Positions 3,639-12,855 of a stretch of 64,000 bases of DNA are shown here, in pieces. Within the stretch, counting starts at the first letter, position 1. Every line of letters begins with the position of its first letter. The notes under the pieces were generated by a model. It did not search any database, was not told where the DNA came from, and saw nothing but the letters and a program-made list of their open reading frames with translations. The position numbers were made by a program, and so were the translations under genes. The DNA comes from Stenomitos frigidus ULC18 (GTDB lineage: Bacteria; Cyanobacteriota; Cyanobacteriia; Leptolyngbyales; Leptolyngbyaceae): the NCBI RefSeq assembly GCF_003003795.1, contig NZ_PVWK01000026.1, positions 1-64,000 of the forward strand, read 5' to 3'.

Positions 3639-4175
3639 ATGCCCCTTCCTCACTGGCTTTCAAGTGTTACTCAAGCGCGCCAACCCCTGCAAACAAGGAT
3701 ACTCAGCGATCCGTACTATCGCTTTCAATCAGTGGCAGAACTTGAGCTTGCGGCTAAATTAGGAGTCAAGATTGACGTGAATCAGGCAGGCGTAGACGAT
3801 TGGCTGCGACTGCCTGGTCTATCGATTCATCAAGCGCGATCGCTCGTCGAATTGACTCAAGCTGGAGTTCAGTTGCACTGCCTGGAGGATATCGCTGCAG
3901 CGTTGAGCCTGCCTGTTATGCGTTTAAAGCCCCTGGAGCCAGTCCTGGTTTTTTGCTTTTACGACGATGAGAGCGTTTGTACGATCAAGCCAGTGAACCC
4001 CAACACGGCGACGCTTGAGTTGTTGATCAGAATTCCTGCTGTCGATACCTATCTGGCACGGGCGATCGTGGCAAACCGTTCAATGGGCCCTTACCGTAAT
4101 CTGATCCACCTTCAACGGCGCTTGTCGCTGCCCAGTCAGCTAGTCGAAGAATTGATGCATTATCTTAAGTTTTAA
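3639..4175 (+). CDS. ComEA-like helix-hairpin-helix protein
   Basis: The 178-residue protein contains two helix-hairpin-helix-like units. The first, about residues 42-75, has the IDVNQAGVDDWLRLPGLS pattern; the second, about 120-175, has PVNPNTATLELLIRIPAVD followed by a YRNLIHLQRR hairpin. ComEA-type HhH domains bind double-stranded DNA without sequence specificity. No signal peptide or lipobox is seen, so it may be cytoplasmic, unlike classic ComEA. The start at ATG 3639 was chosen because the 35 codons before it are repeat-like spacer sequence that happens to stay open. Its last 36 bp overlap the 3' end of lepB on the other strand. Role in DNA uptake or repair is inference. Confidence 0.75.
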   Translation: MPLPHWLSSVTQARQPLQTRILSDPYYRFQSVAELELAAKLGVKIDVNQAGVDDWLRLPGLSIHQARSLVELTQAGVQLHCLEDIAAALSLPVMRLKPLEPVLVFCFYDDESVCTIKPVNPNTATLELLIRIPAVDTYLARAIVANRSMGPYRNLIHLQRRLSLPSQLVEELMHYLKF

Positions 4176-4787
4176 GCTGGTCATCGCTACAACCCCTGGT
4201 CGCAGCTTTACAAAGCCTAACCGTTTAAACGGATAGAAGCGGAGCCAGGCACGACCGATGATGTTTTGCTGCGGCAGAAAGCCCCAAACATGAGAGTCAT
4301 TGCTGTTGTTACGGTTGTCTCCCATCACAAAAAACTCGCCCTCCGGTACGGTGACGGATGGCATTGTGTAATTAGGAGGAGCGGCAATATACGGTTCCTG
4401 GAGCGGTTGCCCATTGACATAGACAGTGCCGTGATTGATTTGAATCGTTTGTCCAGACGTACCAATAATGCGCTTAATAAATGCCTGATCTTTGGTATAT
4501 CCCTGAATTTGGAGTTGTCGCGGGGGGTCGAAAACAACGATTTCGCCAAACTCAGGGGAACGAAGGCGATATGAGAGTTTTTCAACGACGAGGCGATCGC
4601 CCACTTCTAGCGTCGGCAGCATCGAATCAGAGGGAATATAGCGAGGTTCTGCCACAAAGACCCGGATCAACAACGCTAGAATCAGCGCGATGATGAGGAT
4701 CTGGAGGTTTTCCCACCAGGCTCGCCAGGGTGGTGGAGCAGCAGAAACGGCTGATGACTGTAATTCAGAGGGTTTTTCGGAAGTCAT
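4140..4787 (-). CDS. lepB: Signal peptidase I
   Basis: Type I signal peptidase cleaves signal peptides from exported preproteins at the outer face of the cytoplasmic or thylakoid membrane. The 215-residue form starts at ATG 4787; an upstream ATG at 4835 would add 16 residues with no family match. One membrane span lies at about residues 29-46. The catalytic pair is visible: Ser55 in IPSDSMLPTL and the general base Lys105 in FIKRIIG. The later GDNRNNSNDSHVWG box is also intact. The gene is monocistronic; its C-terminus overlaps the HhH gene convergently. Cyanobacteria usually carry two LepB paralogues; I cannot assign LepB1 or LepB2. Confidence 0.93.
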   Translation of the reverse strand: MTSEKPSELQSSAVSAAPPPWRAWWENLQILIIALILALLIRVFVAEPRYIPSDSMLPTLEVGDRLVVEKLSYRLRSPEFGEIVVFDPPRQLQIQGYTKDQAFIKRIIGTSGQTIQINHGTVYVNGQPLQEPYIAAPPNYTMPSVTVPEGEFFVMGDNRNNSNDSHVWGFLPQQNIIGRAWLRFYPFKRLGFVKLRPGVVAMTSLKLKIMHQFFD

Positions 4788-4922
4788 AGAGAGGCGGCTC
4801 AGACAACAGGCACTAGACATTGAACCTTTGACCACAAACTGCTGCTCCTGAAACAGGAAGAATCTGTAGTCTAGAGTCCTCAGTCTAAGGCTCAGACACC
4901 CTCATTCTTGCAAGGGCTACCC

Positions 4923-5630
4923 CTAGAACGCAATAAACTTTTCCGATCGCAACTGGTCAAGCTTTGCGCCTAGCGACAAAATGGTTTCCTGAAGCTGATC
5001 TGATCGCTCACCTACCGCACAGATCACGATATCGAATGTGGCTAAATCAAGCCGCAGTCGTGCCAAAACGGTTTCAGGGCATTGAGCGATCGCCTCTCGA
5101 TAATGGAAGTTTCCCCAAGTTTGTTGCAACCGTTGCCAATGCTGCTGGTAGGGCAAGTGCACAGGCGTTTCTGGGTTCGCTTGCACCAACCAGATGGGGT
5201 ATTGATAGCCACACTCGTATAACCAGTCAATTTGGCTTTTTAATGGCGCAATGCCTGATCCTTCAGCAATATACAGGCGGGGGCGCTGTGGCAGTTCACT
5301 GAGAGTCATGAGTCCATAGGGACCGCGTAACGGCAGGGATTGCCCGATCGCTAAATCCTGTAACGTGGCTGAACTCCAGCCAACGCGTGAGACGCAAAGT
5401 TCGATCTCTGGGCACGAAGAGGGGGAAGACGCGATCGAATAAATTTTGCTGAACTTGCGCCCATCCTGTTCAAACTTAGGCCACACCGACTGACCGGGCA
5501 AAAAACGAAAGTCATCTCGATCCAATCGCAGCCGAATCGCTTTGATGGTTGGTGTAAGGGAGACAGAATGAAGTACCGTCGCCACATAATCTGCCGTAGG
5601 CGATCGGCGTAAAACGTCTAAACTTTGCAT
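4923..5630 (-). CDS. FNR-family flavin/NAD(P)H oxidoreductase under cobalamin riboswitch
   Basis: The protein has 235 residues and the two-domain ferredoxin-NADP reductase fold. An FAD/FMN-binding barrel comes first, with LPGQSVWP and KIYSIASSP as the flavin-binding segment, then a pyridine-nucleotide domain beginning at IAEGSGIAPLKS. It has no iron-sulfur cysteine cluster, so it resembles flavin reductase Fre or the reductase module of oxygenases rather than a full electron-transfer chain. A class-I cobalamin riboswitch lies directly upstream on the same strand (5672-5885), which links expression to vitamin B12 level. From that I infer a role in corrinoid or cobalt metabolism, for instance reduction of cob(III)/cob(II)alamin before adenosylation. 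The sequence alone cannot prove the substrate. Confidence 0.8.
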   Translation of the reverse strand: MQSLDVLRRSPTADYVATVLHSVSLTPTIKAIRLRLDRDDFRFLPGQSVWPKFEQDGRKFSKIYSIASSPSSCPEIELCVSRVGWSSATLQDLAIGQSLPLRGPYGLMTLSELPQRPRLYIAEGSGIAPLKSQIDWLYECGYQYPIWLVQANPETPVHLPYQQHWQRLQQTWGNFHYREAIAQCPETVLARLRLDLATFDIVICAVGERSDQLQETILSLGAKLDQLRSEKFIAF

Positions 5631-5671
5631 GATGAATTTTTACCTGTGCATCGCAGGCATGATGATGTACG

Positions 5672-5885
5672 TTACTTCAGGCAGGCATTCTGACTTTAGA
5701 AAGTTTTGAGTTTTGAGTTCTAAGTTTTGAGTTGGATTAGTTAACTCAACACTCAAAATTCATCCTTCCTTTCACAGCTGCGGCACAGTGCCGGATTTCT
5801 TTGCGCTTTAGCAAAATCACCGGGCTTTCCCCAGGTCAAGTTTTTGACCCTATCTGGACTGGTTCCCCAGATAACCTGAACTAGC
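5672..5885 (-). promoter_or_regulatory. Cobalamin (AdoCbl-type) riboswitch
   Basis: Read on the minus strand, the region holds the hallmark elements in order: a P1 arm ttcagg (5880-5875), the ggggaaagcccggtga block (5832-5817), aaatccggcac leading into the B12 box gccgcagctgtga (5784-5772), and the 3' core gtcagaatgcctgcc (5694-5680) that ends in cctgaa (5681-5676), which pairs perfectly with the P1 5' arm. Such elements normally switch expression off when adenosylcobalamin is bound. It ends about 40 nt before the start codon of the FNR-like gene at 5630, so it may act on translation initiation. The arm between the B12 box and the 3' core is filled with heptamer repeats. Confidence 0.9.
5700..5765. 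repeat. Heptamer repeats inside the riboswitch variable arm
   Basis: This stretch contains several copies of the heptamer GAGTTTT, partly degenerate, followed by an inverted copy (aactcaacactcaaaatt), so that the RNA folds into a long A/U-rich hairpin. The same heptamer family occurs at 12610-12630 and 54223-54297. In the riboswitch it occupies the peripheral stem-loop that varies in length among family members, so the ligand core is untouched. Confidence 0.75.
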
Positions 5886-5967
5886 TTAGGCATTGTAGCT
5901 TATGGTGGTCTAAACTTCGTCAAGCAGTTTATTGTTTGATCACGAACGTCATAGTCCACTGAAGGTT

Positions 5968-6483
5968 ATGCCCAAACCAACCAAGTCAGAAAATGTGCCT
6001 GAACCCATGCGGGCAAAATTTGAGGAGTTGATCCACCTCACAGACAACTTCTGCAAAGAGCATTTGGATGATGAATATGCTCAACTTTGCCGCTATCTGA
6101 CGGCTGCCCTTTGTCGCAAACGCCCTTCACCCTTGGCAAGTGGAAAAGCAAATACCTGGGCTTGCGGCATTATTCACGCGATCGGCACCGTCAATTTCTT
6201 GTTTGACTCGTCCCAAACGCCTCACATGAAGGCGACAGACATTTACGAACTGTTTGGCGTGGGTCAGAGCACGGGGCAGGGAAAATCGAAGCAGATTCGC
6301 GATGTGATGAAAATGCATCAGATGGATCCAAACTGGTCGCTGCCTAGCATGATCGATCGCAATCCAATGGCTTGGATGATTTCTGTTAACGGTTTCATCA
6401 TCGATGCGCGGCAGGCACCACGCGCGATTCAGGAAGAAGCTTTCCAAAAAGGGTTCATTCCTTACTTGCCGGAAGAGAGCTAG
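5968..6483 (+). CDS. DUF6398-like protein
   Basis: This is a soluble protein of 171 residues of unknown function. It is helical, with a conserved core around CRYLTAALCRKRPSPL, a WACGIIHAIGTVNFLFD segment and a helix-turn-helix-like ELFGVGQSTGQGKSKQIRD stretch. This pattern agrees with my recollection of the DUF6398 family, in which the last segment looks like a winged or HTH DNA-binding element; the family name is from memory. The start is ATG 5968 after a gaagg ribosome-binding sequence; a TTG 36 bp upstream is possible but weaker. The NTPase-TPR gene starts 68 bp downstream on the same strand, suggesting a two-gene unit. Confidence 0.65.
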   Translation: MPKPTKSENVPEPMRAKFEELIHLTDNFCKEHLDDEYAQLCRYLTAALCRKRPSPLASGKANTWACGIIHAIGTVNFLFDSSQTPHMKATDIYELFGVGQSTGQGKSKQIRDVMKMHQMDPNWSLPSMIDRNPMAWMISVNGFIIDARQAPRAIQEEAFQKGFIPYLPEES

Positions 6484-6551
6484 ATCTGCGGGAGTTGGAA
6501 ACGTGCAGTGTTGAAGCGATCGTCCCCCGATACCTTCAGGAGAAAGACTGA

Positions 6552-8942
6552 GTGGATGCCATTCTTAAGTTCTTGATTGCCAATAAGGATGCTCTAGGGT
6601 TTCTCTTCGGTTCGGGTGTAATTGTGGCAGTGGGCAAGCCTTTCTGGTCTTACCTGAAACAGCGCTTCAGTCCGCGGATTCCACCCCTTGATACCTTTCC
6701 GTTTGAGGTGATTAAGCCCAACAGTGATATTTTGAAAGCCGTGTTTGGCGGAGCAAGGGACAATCCGCTTGCCGATCGCAACATTCGCTATTTGCAACGG
6801 GTGGCAAACCAGGATATTCAGACGGAGCTAGAAGCGCAGCTAGAAGAGTCCCGCTGGGTATTGATCCTGGGTCAGACAGGCTTGGGCAAAACGCGGGAAG
6901 CCGCAGAGTTAGCACAGAAATATAACCGTCGAGGGTGGACGGTTTTGAAGTTGAAGCACTGGGAACTGCTAGATGAACCCACCCACTTTGCCGAAGACAA
7001 GATTGGAACAGACCGTAAATTGCTGTTTTTCCTGGATGATCTAAACAAGCTGATCTATAAGCGGGGAGAACTGCTGAAGGAAGACCCTCGACAGTTTCGA
7101 GATTTGCCACCCCAGGAACGATTGCGCCTGACGTTGGATTACTACGAGCGGAATTGCCGTCCTGAAGAATTCCGGGTCATTGCCACTGCTCGAAATGAAA
7201 CGGTTCCCCAGTACAACGAGCCGATCAGTGAACTCGACAAGCTTGGTTTAGATAAACACCCGAAGCTATGGCGGAAGTTCATTCGTTGCCCTCTACCCAA
7301 ACCAGACGATGATGCCATTGTTCAACTTATTCAGGAAACGGTAAGAGAGGCAGACATTGCTGCAAACCCGAATGATTACGCTCGTTTAGCCAGACGGAAC
7401 GATCGCACCTTCCGAAATATTCAGTTGAATCTGCAAACAGCGAAAGATGAGGGGCGGGCACTCACCCTGGATACCTTTCGTGAGTCGTTGCGGGAAAGCT
7501 GGGAAGCAAAATACCGCAAAGCCAGGAAAAAATATCCCATTGCGTCTGTGATCTACGACGCGGTTGAACTGCTTCGGGCAGTGAATATCCAGCTACAGGA
7601 TTTTACTGTAGTTGCAACTACGCAACTGTTGGCAGGTGGAAATGTACTTCAGCAACTCCTGCGTTGGCGACAGATTCGTCATGCACTTCATTACTTGACC
7701 CATGACGGAAACAGCATTCTAGAACCCCGTGACGGTCAGATTGAGGCAAAAGGCACACAAGTAAATCCAGAGGTTTATATACCAGAACTTACTCGTCTAC
7801 TCCTACGTTGGACTGAAAGCCATCCTCGTGAAACTTCTTTCTCTCTATTGGGTTTTGCCCTCAAAGCTGCTGCCCTAGGACACGATCGAGAAAGCCTTTC
7901 ATGTCTTGAGACATTTTTAGAACCCGCTCCTGAGTCATATGCAGCGCACATTCTCAAAGGAACTGTACTGGATATGCTGAAGCTCCACGAAGATGCTGCT
8001 GCTACTTATGATAAGGCGGTTAAACTTGAGCCACATTTGGTCTCAGCCTGGTTGCAGAAGGGAATGGCTCTGAATAATCTTGGCTATTTTGAGGAGGCTG
8101 TCGTCAGCTTTGACAATGTAGTCCAACTTGAGCCTGGATTGACTCTTGGCTGGTTTCTTCGAGGCATTGCGCTGAATAAATTGGAGCGTTATCAAGAAGC
8201 AATTGCCAGTTTTGACAGAGTAATCGATCTTGAACCAGGCTTCATCGATTCCTGGTATAACCGAGGCGTTGCTCTATCTAATTTAGAAAGGTATGAGGAG
8301 TCAATTAACAGCTATGACAGAGTAATTGAGCTTGAACCACGTTTTTTTGATGTCTGGTATGACCGAGGAGTTGCTCTGGGTAACTTAAAGCGTTACGAAG
8401 AAGCGATCGCTAGCTATGACAACGCTCTACAATTTAAACCTGACTCTTATGAAGCCTGGTATGGTCGGGCTTTTGAACTGGGCTTTTTAGGGCAATCAGT
8501 TGATGCGATCGCGAGTTTTGACCAGGCTTTAGAGATTAGACCTGACTCTTATGAAGCTTGGAATAGCCGGGGAAATATACTAGGTCAACAAGGTAAATAT
8601 CAAGAAGCGATCAATAGCTTTGACAGAGCTATCGCCATCAAACCGGATTACCACGACGCTTGGAACAACAGGGGCATTGCGCTGATGAAGTTAGGAGCTT
8701 ATCAGGAAGCCATCCAAAGCTACGATCATTCGTTGGCATTTCTACCAGATGATGCCAAAGCTTTTTACAATAAGGCTTGCTGTTTTGCCCTTTGGAATAA
8801 GGTTGAAGAGGCAGTTGAAAATCTGCGACGGGCAATCGAACTAGATCCTGATCAGTGTCGGGAGATGGCAAAGACGGATGCTGATTTAGATGGCATTCGA
8901 CATGACGTGAGGTTTCAGGCGTTGTTAATAGCGGCTTCGTAG
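6552..8942 (+). CDS. P-loop NTPase with about ten C-terminal TPRs
   Basis: The 796-residue protein has a hydrophobic segment at about 13-35 that could be a membrane anchor. A P-loop ATPase domain follows, with Walker A GQTGLGKT (107-114), Walker B LLFFLDDL (around 157-164) and a VIATARNE sensor-like strand. From about 430 to 785 there are nine clear and one weak tetratricopeptide repeats, each 34 residues with the W-RG-AL--L-Y-EA pattern. NTPase plus superhelical repeat is the plan of STAND-type signalling switches, but I do not see a fused effector domain. The start is GTG 6552. With the DUF6398-like gene upstream it forms a probable operon. Ligand and output are unknown. Confidence 0.75.
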   Translation: MDAILKFLIANKDALGFLFGSGVIVAVGKPFWSYLKQRFSPRIPPLDTFPFEVIKPNSDILKAVFGGARDNPLADRNIRYLQRVANQDIQTELEAQLEESRWVLILGQTGLGKTREAAELAQKYNRRGWTVLKLKHWELLDEPTHFAEDKIGTDRKLLFFLDDLNKLIYKRGELLKEDPRQFRDLPPQERLRLTLDYYERNCRPEEFRVIATARNETVPQYNEPISELDKLGLDKHPKLWRKFIRCPLPKPDDDAIVQLIQETVREADIAANPNDYARLARRNDRTFRNIQLNLQTAKDEGRALTLDTFRESLRESWEAKYRKARKKYPIASVIYDAVELLRAVNIQLQDFTVVATTQLLAGGNVLQQLLRWRQIRHALHYLTHDGNSILEPRDGQIEAKGTQVNPEVYIPELTRLLLRWTESHPRETSFSLLGFALKAAALGHDRESLSCLETFLEPAPESYAAHILKGTVLDMLKLHEDAAATYDKAVKLEPHLVSAWLQKGMALNNLGYFEEAVVSFDNVVQLEPGLTLGWFLRGIALNKLERYQEAIASFDRVIDLEPGFIDSWYNRGVALSNLERYEESINSYDRVIELEPRFFDVWYDRGVALGNLKRYEEAIASYDNALQFKPDSYEAWYGRAFELGFLGQSVDAIASFDQALEIRPDSYEAWNSRGNILGQQGKYQEAINSFDRAIAIKPDYHDAWNNRGIALMKLGAYQEAIQSYDHSLAFLPDDAKAFYNKACCFALWNKVEEAVENLRRAIELDPDQCREMAKTDADLDGIRHDVRFQALLIAAS

Positions 8943-12165: not shown

Positions 12166-12855
12166 TTAATCTCTTAAGCATTGAGAATTCAGCTTGAAAC
12201 GATCACCACTGACCGCTAACTGCCAGCCAGGCGTACATAGACGATCACAAACCTGCTGTTGCCAGACCTTGAGTCGCTCAGCAAACTCAGGTCTTTGTAG
12301 ACCGCCACGCCACAACACCAGAGCATCTTCGCCATTGTCTGGGTAGTAACGCCGTCGTCGTCCTGCTTCACAAAAATCAAATTTTTGATACAAGGAGAGT
12401 GCCGACTGGTTAGAAATCCTCACTTCTAAAGTGGCTCGTTCTAGTCCGCGTGCATGGGCAGACGCCATCAGGGCATAGAGTAAGGCTTGCCCCAGCCCTT
12501 GCCGTTGATGAGTGGGATCGATCGCCAACATGGTGATGTGCGCTTCTTCGAGCACGGCCCAGTAGCAGCCAAGACCGAGGAGGGGTGAGGCGTGAGGGGT
12601 GGGGTTTTTTAAGTTTTGAGTTTTGAGTTCGGGGCGAACCTCTGTCTCCTCATCTTCTCCCACCGCTTCTGCTTCCCCTGCCTCCTGCCTTCTGCCCTCT
12701 GTCTCCCTTATCAAAACGAGTAACTCGCTATTAGGGCTCTCTAACTCCCGGCGATAGCCATCTAGCGTCCAAAGCCCACCAAAGCAACGTTGGTCAAGTA
12801 CCAGAGCAGCGGGTAACAGAGCGGCGGATAGTGGTTGAAGTGCGAGAAAAGTCAC
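12166..12855 (-). CDS. rimI: Ribosomal protein alanine N-acetyltransferase with repeat-derived insert
   Basis: This GNAT-family enzyme acetylates the N-terminal alanine of a ribosomal protein in enterobacteria; cyanobacterial orthologues probably acetylate several N-termini. The 229 residues include acetyl-CoA motif A HQRQGLGQALL (117-127) and the usual EEAHITMLAIDP strand before it; motif B is RISNQSALSLYQKFDF. Residues ~51-93 are a low-complexity, charged insertion (rich in Glu, then NPTPHASP) between the LLVLIR strand and the LLGLGCYWA strand. The insert is encoded by spacer-type repeats including GAGTTTT heptamers, in frame. The fold core is otherwise complete, so the enzyme may still work. 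Start ATG 12855. Confidence 0.88.
   Translation of the reverse strand: MTFLALQPLSAALLPAALVLDQRCFGGLWTLDGYRRELESPNSELLVLIRETEGRRQEAGEAEAVGEDEETEVRPELKTQNLKNPTPHASPLLGLGCYWAVLEEAHITMLAIDPTHQRQGLGQALLYALMASAHARGLERATLEVRISNQSALSLYQKFDFCEAGRRRRYYPDNGEDALVLWRGGLQRPEFAERLKVWQQQVCDRLCTPGWQLAVSGDRFKLNSQCLRD
12577..12705. repeat. Heptamer and polypyrimidine repeat inside rimI
   Basis: The stretch combines aagttttgagttttgagttc, a run of gaggggtgaggcgtgagg type units and a Cct/tct-rich segment. It has the composition of the repeat-filled intergenic spacers of this genome, yet it is in frame within rimI and free of stops. Confidence 0.65.

Follow-up and report, generated by a model that had tools for sequence, protein, structure and literature searches.

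Within the window, i.e., the whole 64,000-nucleotide stretch of Stenomitos frigidus ULC18 DNA that was analysed, a cobalamin riboswitch stands in front of a gene for a flavin reductase-like protein. The gene (4923-5630, minus strand), recognised from its open reading frame and Pfam domains, starts with ATG and encodes a two-domain, FNR-like NAD(P)H:FAD reductase of 235 aa. The next gene downstream, 87 nt away on the same strand, is lepB, encoding signal peptidase I (4140-4835, minus strand), and it is possible that the two are co-transcribed. The divergent neighbours (5932-8942) encode a DUF6398 protein and then a 796-aa protein, which by eye resembles a P-loop NTPase with TPR-like repeats.

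The riboswitch aptamer (5663-5894, minus strand) was assigned from its match to RF00174 and from covariation in orthologous leaders; it carries no P8-P12 domain, and 33 nt separate its 3' edge from the ATG of the reductase gene. It is the sole Rfam match in the 64-kb window, at 41.5 bits (E 4.6e-7) against a gathering cut-off of 31.5 bits. The initial annotation, which had placed a cobalamin riboswitch directly upstream of a two-domain, Fe-S-free FNR-fold gene and had proposed a covariance-model scan for RF00174 as a check, is borne out in this respect. A family-specific covariance model also has the window leader as its only match in the 64 kb, with a score of 211 bits for what is a member of its own training set. 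Furthermore, the fold stability of the leader exceeds that of shuffled sequences (z -2.95).

Within the aptamer, loop L5 (GTGCCGCAGCTGT; 5774-5786, minus strand), the partner of L13, is nearly invariant in 15 leaders, and the core of the B12 box reads GTCAGAATGCC (5684-5694, minus strand). The class-I form of this box, GGAGACC, is absent from the window leader, as are the class-I motifs GCCACTG and CGGGAAG. At the place that P8-P12 takes in class I there are AACTCAA heptamer repeats with a partial inverted partner (5702-5760, minus strand), and this arm folds as a single long repeat hairpin. As the P8-P12 extension is the criterion for class I cobalamin riboswitches (PMC11260477), the earlier label of a complete class-I riboswitch is not supported: in its architecture the riboswitch is class II-like. 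Other species of the family carry a different, often repeat-like, arm in place of P8-P12 (L008, L011 and L013), and so repeat insertion seems to be tolerated by this part of the riboswitch. Further copies of AACTCAA occur in the window at 12612 and 54264. At the 5' edge of the riboswitch, TACAAT (5892-5897, minus strand) is a candidate -10 element read by eye; a simple promoter scan found none, and hexamers of the similar form TA(C/A/G)AAT are present in most orthologous leaders.

Just upstream of the start codon lies the putative expression platform, a P13/L13 hairpin (GCCTG-CGATGCA-CAGGT; 5642-5658, minus strand). Across 15 aligned leaders this hairpin is paired in 95% of cells and covaries in three of its six pairs. 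In the same alignment the named helices keep 91.6% of their pairs, compared with at most 43% when slid, and doubly changed cells number 69 against 21.8 in shuffles; when the core helices are taken with P13, both sides have changed in 20 of 31 pairs (shuffles, 11.1). The kissing pairs between L5 and L13 are 90-100% kept in the 15 leaders, and one of them has undergone a compensatory change, from C-G to A-U, in L011. A terminator scan of the leader returned just two weak matches, which lie inside the aptamer and are no more than shuffles give. With P13/L13 covarying, the kissing pairs kept and no terminator above chance, translational repression is the likely mode of action. Since the kissing-loop hairpin abuts the start codon, bound cobamide likely represses translation; we infer this OFF direction from known kissing-loop riboswitches, by analogy with which P13/L13 would presumably mask the ribosome site once L13 pairs with L5. 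In Anabaena, a B12 riboswitch has been shown to repress under cobalt sufficiency (PMC10878165).

The protein itself matches the FAD-binding domain PF00970 at 31.7 bits (cut-off 21.1) and the NAD-binding domain PF00175 at 21.2 bits, slightly under the cut-off of 22. Pfam found no ferredoxin or Fe-S domain in the 235 residues, and the only cysteines, at positions 73, 79, 140, 184 and 204, form no Fe-S motif. An AlphaFold2 model, which is confident (mean pLDDT 91.7), predicts two domains, and comparison of this model with the PDB places an FNR fold over residues 12-233 with Z above 24, the matches being oxygenase reductases, NqrF, reductase domains of flavohaemoglobins, plant-type FNR and E. coli Fre. 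In a 26-row alignment the motifs K62-I-Y-S, G124-S-G-I-A-P, C204 and E230-x-F232 are invariant or near-invariant. None of the NCBIfam equivalog models reached its cut-off: the best was BenC (48 bits vs 430), and the models for Fre (30.6 bits vs 230) and for the photosynthetic FNR, PetH (25.1 bits vs 600), scored lower. At the nucleotide level a single named relative was found, an Oscillatoriales MAG, and the plasmid matches are distant oxygenase-type reductases.

Among 390 sampled cyanobacterial genomes we found 30 orthologues of the reductase (~8%), a number that leaves out a paralogue in G266 (32% identity) and a gene fragment in G026; further family-wide sampling yielded no extra ones. Twenty-nine of the 30 have a readable upstream region, and an intact riboswitch precedes 18 of these, in nine genera of 15 (the window, L008-L013, L036-L042, L044, L045, L047 and L050). 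This is the opposite of what the initial annotation had named as speaking against its proposal, namely a riboswitch missing from most orthologues. Leaders outside the training set of the family-specific model score between 109.6 and 193.5 bits; within this held-out group L041 is a near-copy of the training row L040, and L042, L012 and L050 are not. Some leaders caught by this model, such as L012, are missed by Rfam, and thus Rfam alone would under-count them. The orthologue in G036 has a decayed riboswitch copy upstream (19 bits), and no riboswitch was found before ten others, comprising two f24 orthologues of one genus, one from f18, one from f20 and six from group f14, which we take to be Gloeobacter-type. 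On the protein tree four riboswitch changes are needed, and the tree allows the riboswitch to be readily read as ancestral in a 22-row clade and lost later. In G026 (L082:6064-6433) a deletion has fused the front half of the aptamer to the latter half of the reductase gene, a fossil of a pairing that once existed in a further genus. We consider the riboswitch, and its pairing with the reductase gene, to be close to certain.

The surroundings of the orthologues are also conserved in part. In 15 loci, drawn from two families, the reductase is followed by lepB in the same orientation, ispG and ctpA lie upstream in several f24 loci, and comEA-like genes, and in some loci a tRNA, are found nearby. 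None of the loci examined has a recognised B12 gene beside the reductase or an operon with B12 genes. The recurrence of lepB, and the lack of a riboswitch before the Gloeobacter-type orthologues, would suit a general, housekeeping flavin reductase whose B12 control is incidental, or a riboswitch whose real target is lepB. We give this only a slight chance, as the covarying platform hairpin borders on the start codon of the reductase itself, and riboswitch and reductase also occur together where lepB is not adjacent (L064 and L070). A B12-sparing role, in which the reductase would be the electron-transfer part of a pathway replacing a B12-dependent enzyme, as MetE does for MetH, draws on the nearest relatives being oxygenase reductases (BenC, T4moF and MmoC) and on the occurrence of B12-independent isozymes among known riboswitch targets (PMC3766115). 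However, no oxygenase or isozyme gene was recognised beside the reductase, its neighbours being the lepB, comEA-like, ispG and ctpA genes, and MetE was found in only two of 61 genomes, which makes such a role distinctly improbable.

Other B12 riboswitches in the genomes that hold the reductase precede cbiX (11 loci), hupE (7 loci) and cbiMNQO (7 loci, the window's genome included), as well as TonB receptors (btuB-like) and a metal-protein-like gene. Those with a readable target in the window's own genome drive cbiMNQO and a cobG cluster. Because riboswitches of the same genomes drive cbiX, cbiMNQO, hupE, cobG and btuB-like genes, the reductase very likely belongs to a B12-supply regulon. Most of these targets encode cobalt transporters or the cobalt chelatase CbiX, and reduction of metal chelates via flavin is common among Fre-like folds. 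The protein could accordingly be a flavin reductase for cobalt acquisition, acting on Co(III) or on metal complexes under the same control as cbiMNQO and hupE. We hold this to be fairly improbable, given that cobalt enters as Co2+ with no reductase known to be needed, that the protein has no obvious membrane or export segment, and that no operon was seen to combine its gene with a cobalt transporter.

The window's genome has another cobalamin riboswitch (L078:167-367), which sits at the end of a contig, its target gene thus being out of reach. In several genomes a small membrane protein comes after B12 riboswitches or directly after a riboswitch-driven TonB receptor (L106:379-981, L101:235-843 and L124:2512-3012). 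The L106 copy has no Pfam match and the L124 copy was likened to it by eye only; the protein is a candidate part of cobalt or B12 transport.

The distribution of B12 enzymes narrows down the step at which the reductase could act. The CobA-type adenosyltransferase family is present in all 61 genomes tested, and PduO-type adenosyltransferases are absent from these, save for a small PduO-like fragment in G284 that is interrupted by a stop. With the reductase gene in only ~8% of genomes, compared with a CobA-type enzyme in 61 of 61, the reductase cannot be the general enzyme and adenosylation proceeds without need of it; the gene is not required for de novo B12 synthesis in general. A link between the reductase and the type of adenosyltransferase was rejected, the G284 fragment apart, as only the CobA type occurs. 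Replacement of flavodoxin was likewise rejected, with 10 of 24 holders and 20 of 37 non-holders showing no association (p 0.43). Beside canonical CobA, nearly all 61 genomes have, among the matches listed, a second PF02572 match resembling a tandem CobA/BtuR-like protein, e.g., the ~390-aa protein with two such domains at G000:C83:16189-17265.

The riboswitch that drives the cobG cluster in the window's genome raises the idea that the reductase is a partner of CobG or a substitute for the precorrin-6A reductase CbiJ. The distribution of both enzymes largely refutes this and leaves it almost no probability: the f24 holders of the reductase are without a true CobG and the f24 genomes with CobG are without the reductase, so that CobG is not associated, and 58 of 61 genomes have CbiJ, nearly all holders among them.

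The main rival is reactivation of MetH, in which the reductase, directly or with ferredoxin, would re-reduce cob(II)alamin on this enzyme and, being raised under cobamide scarcity, would allow better use of each cofactor molecule. All 11 genomes tested for MetH have it. Among them are G086 and G119, two Gloeobacter-type genomes which have kept the reductase and are missing canonical CobA and CbiJ, with only the tandem-domain CobA paralogue left. Both have a riboswitch before a TonB receptor. This pattern points weakly to corrinoid use or recycling and not to ring synthesis, weakly because their own reductase copies are without a riboswitch, and it agrees as well with corrinoid salvage as with MetH reactivation. 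Similarly, the sole genome of the same family with a riboswitch-driven metE (G026, L121) is the one with the broken reductase, a single case that would agree with a role at MetH. However, an anticorrelation between MetE and the reductase was discarded as a line of evidence, as MetE, with two of 61 genomes, is too rare for a test and any tendency to avoid the reductase falls short of significance. MetH is, moreover, very likely near-universal in cyanobacteria, compared with ~8% for the reductase, and metH is physically linked in no locus. On balance we regard MetH reactivation as unlikely.

Given its regulation and company, the reductase very probably helps to make or recycle B12. As to how, corrinoid reduction is the best reading of its function from sequence and predicted structure, with a chance that we put at about even; it is supported by the match of the fold to E. 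coli Fre, a flavin reductase that reduces corrinoids. Counting against it are the lack of a recognised B12 gene beside the reductase in any locus examined, the ten orthologues without a riboswitch, and the nearest sequence and fold relatives, which are reductases of oxygenases, hydrogenase and NqrF and do not include known corrinoid reductases. The best explanation of the locus as a whole, which we hold with evenly balanced confidence, is a B12 OFF riboswitch over an auxiliary NAD(P)H-dependent FAD reductase that probably reduces corrinoid cobalt. It is a more tentative proposal, and one that we rate somewhat short of even, that this lineage-restricted FNR-fold family is a dedicated, B12-repressed corrinoid reductase serving CobA or MetH when cobamide is scarce. 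CobA-type transferases are reduced slowly by free flavin, which has been proposed as a reason for dedicated reductases (PMC4083273).

Under the explanation of a B12-repressed corrinoid reductase, plentiful cobamide would bind the aptamer, the kissing contact between L5 and L13 would form, the P13 hairpin next to the start codon would be stabilised and translation would stop. When cobamide is scarce, the reductase would be made. We infer its electron donor, acceptor and substrate as follows: electrons would pass from NAD(P)H to FAD and on to corrinoid cobalt, either directly, from Co(III) to Co(II) or to Co(II) bound by the CobA-type adenosyltransferase, or indirectly through free reduced flavin or a carrier. 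Scarce corrinoid, whether newly made or salvaged, would in this way be turned into active cofactor.

Cyanobacteria are major producers of pseudocobalamin, and the enzyme that reduces corrinoid cobalt before adenosylation is, as the initial annotation had stated and the literature agrees, poorly defined in them, with the isiB flavodoxin and Tery_4461 as competing candidates (PMC5816740). The probably B12-repressed reductase is a concrete, testable candidate for that step, at least in the lineages that hold the gene, which are a minority of cyanobacteria. B12 riboswitches have so far been described before genes for synthesis, transport and isozymes (PMC3766115), and in the open-access literature we found no paper linking such a riboswitch to an FNR-like gene; an uncharacterised FNR subfamily would be added to the target set.

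Of the known systems, E. coli Fre (NAD(P)H:flavin oxidoreductase; 1qfj; NF005963) is similar to the reductase in having a two-domain FNR fold without Fe-S and a similar length (Z 24.6), but differs in sequence, with 20% identity and the low score on the NCBIfam Fre model given above. Free flavin is the substrate of Fre, which is known to reduce corrinoids indirectly; to our knowledge it is not controlled by a riboswitch. BenC, T4moF, MmoC and GcoB are the best sequence and structure matches and have the FAD and NAD(P)H motifs in common with the reductase, but they carry an N-terminal [2Fe-2S] domain and serve a named oxygenase, neither of which applies to the window reductase. Anabaena btuB2/alr4027 and the cob regulon share the RNA family, repression by cobalt/B12 sufficiency and targets in B12 supply, and the account of that regulon (PMC10878165) names no FNR-like target. 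For CobR of Brucella, a flavoprotein driven by NAD(P)H, reduction of corrinoids ahead of adenosylation has likewise been proposed, but at 18.7 kDa it is a PheA2/TftC/HpaC-like flavin reductase of another fold (PMC4083273); it gave no sequence match to the reductase, and CobR-type folds are absent among the structure matches of the latter. PduS of the Pdu microcompartment, at 48.6 kDa, has two [4Fe-4S] clusters, whereas the window reductase is without CxxCxxCxxxC motifs; its likeness lies in the proposed function, the reduction of Co(III) via Co(II) to Co(I) (PMC2982820).
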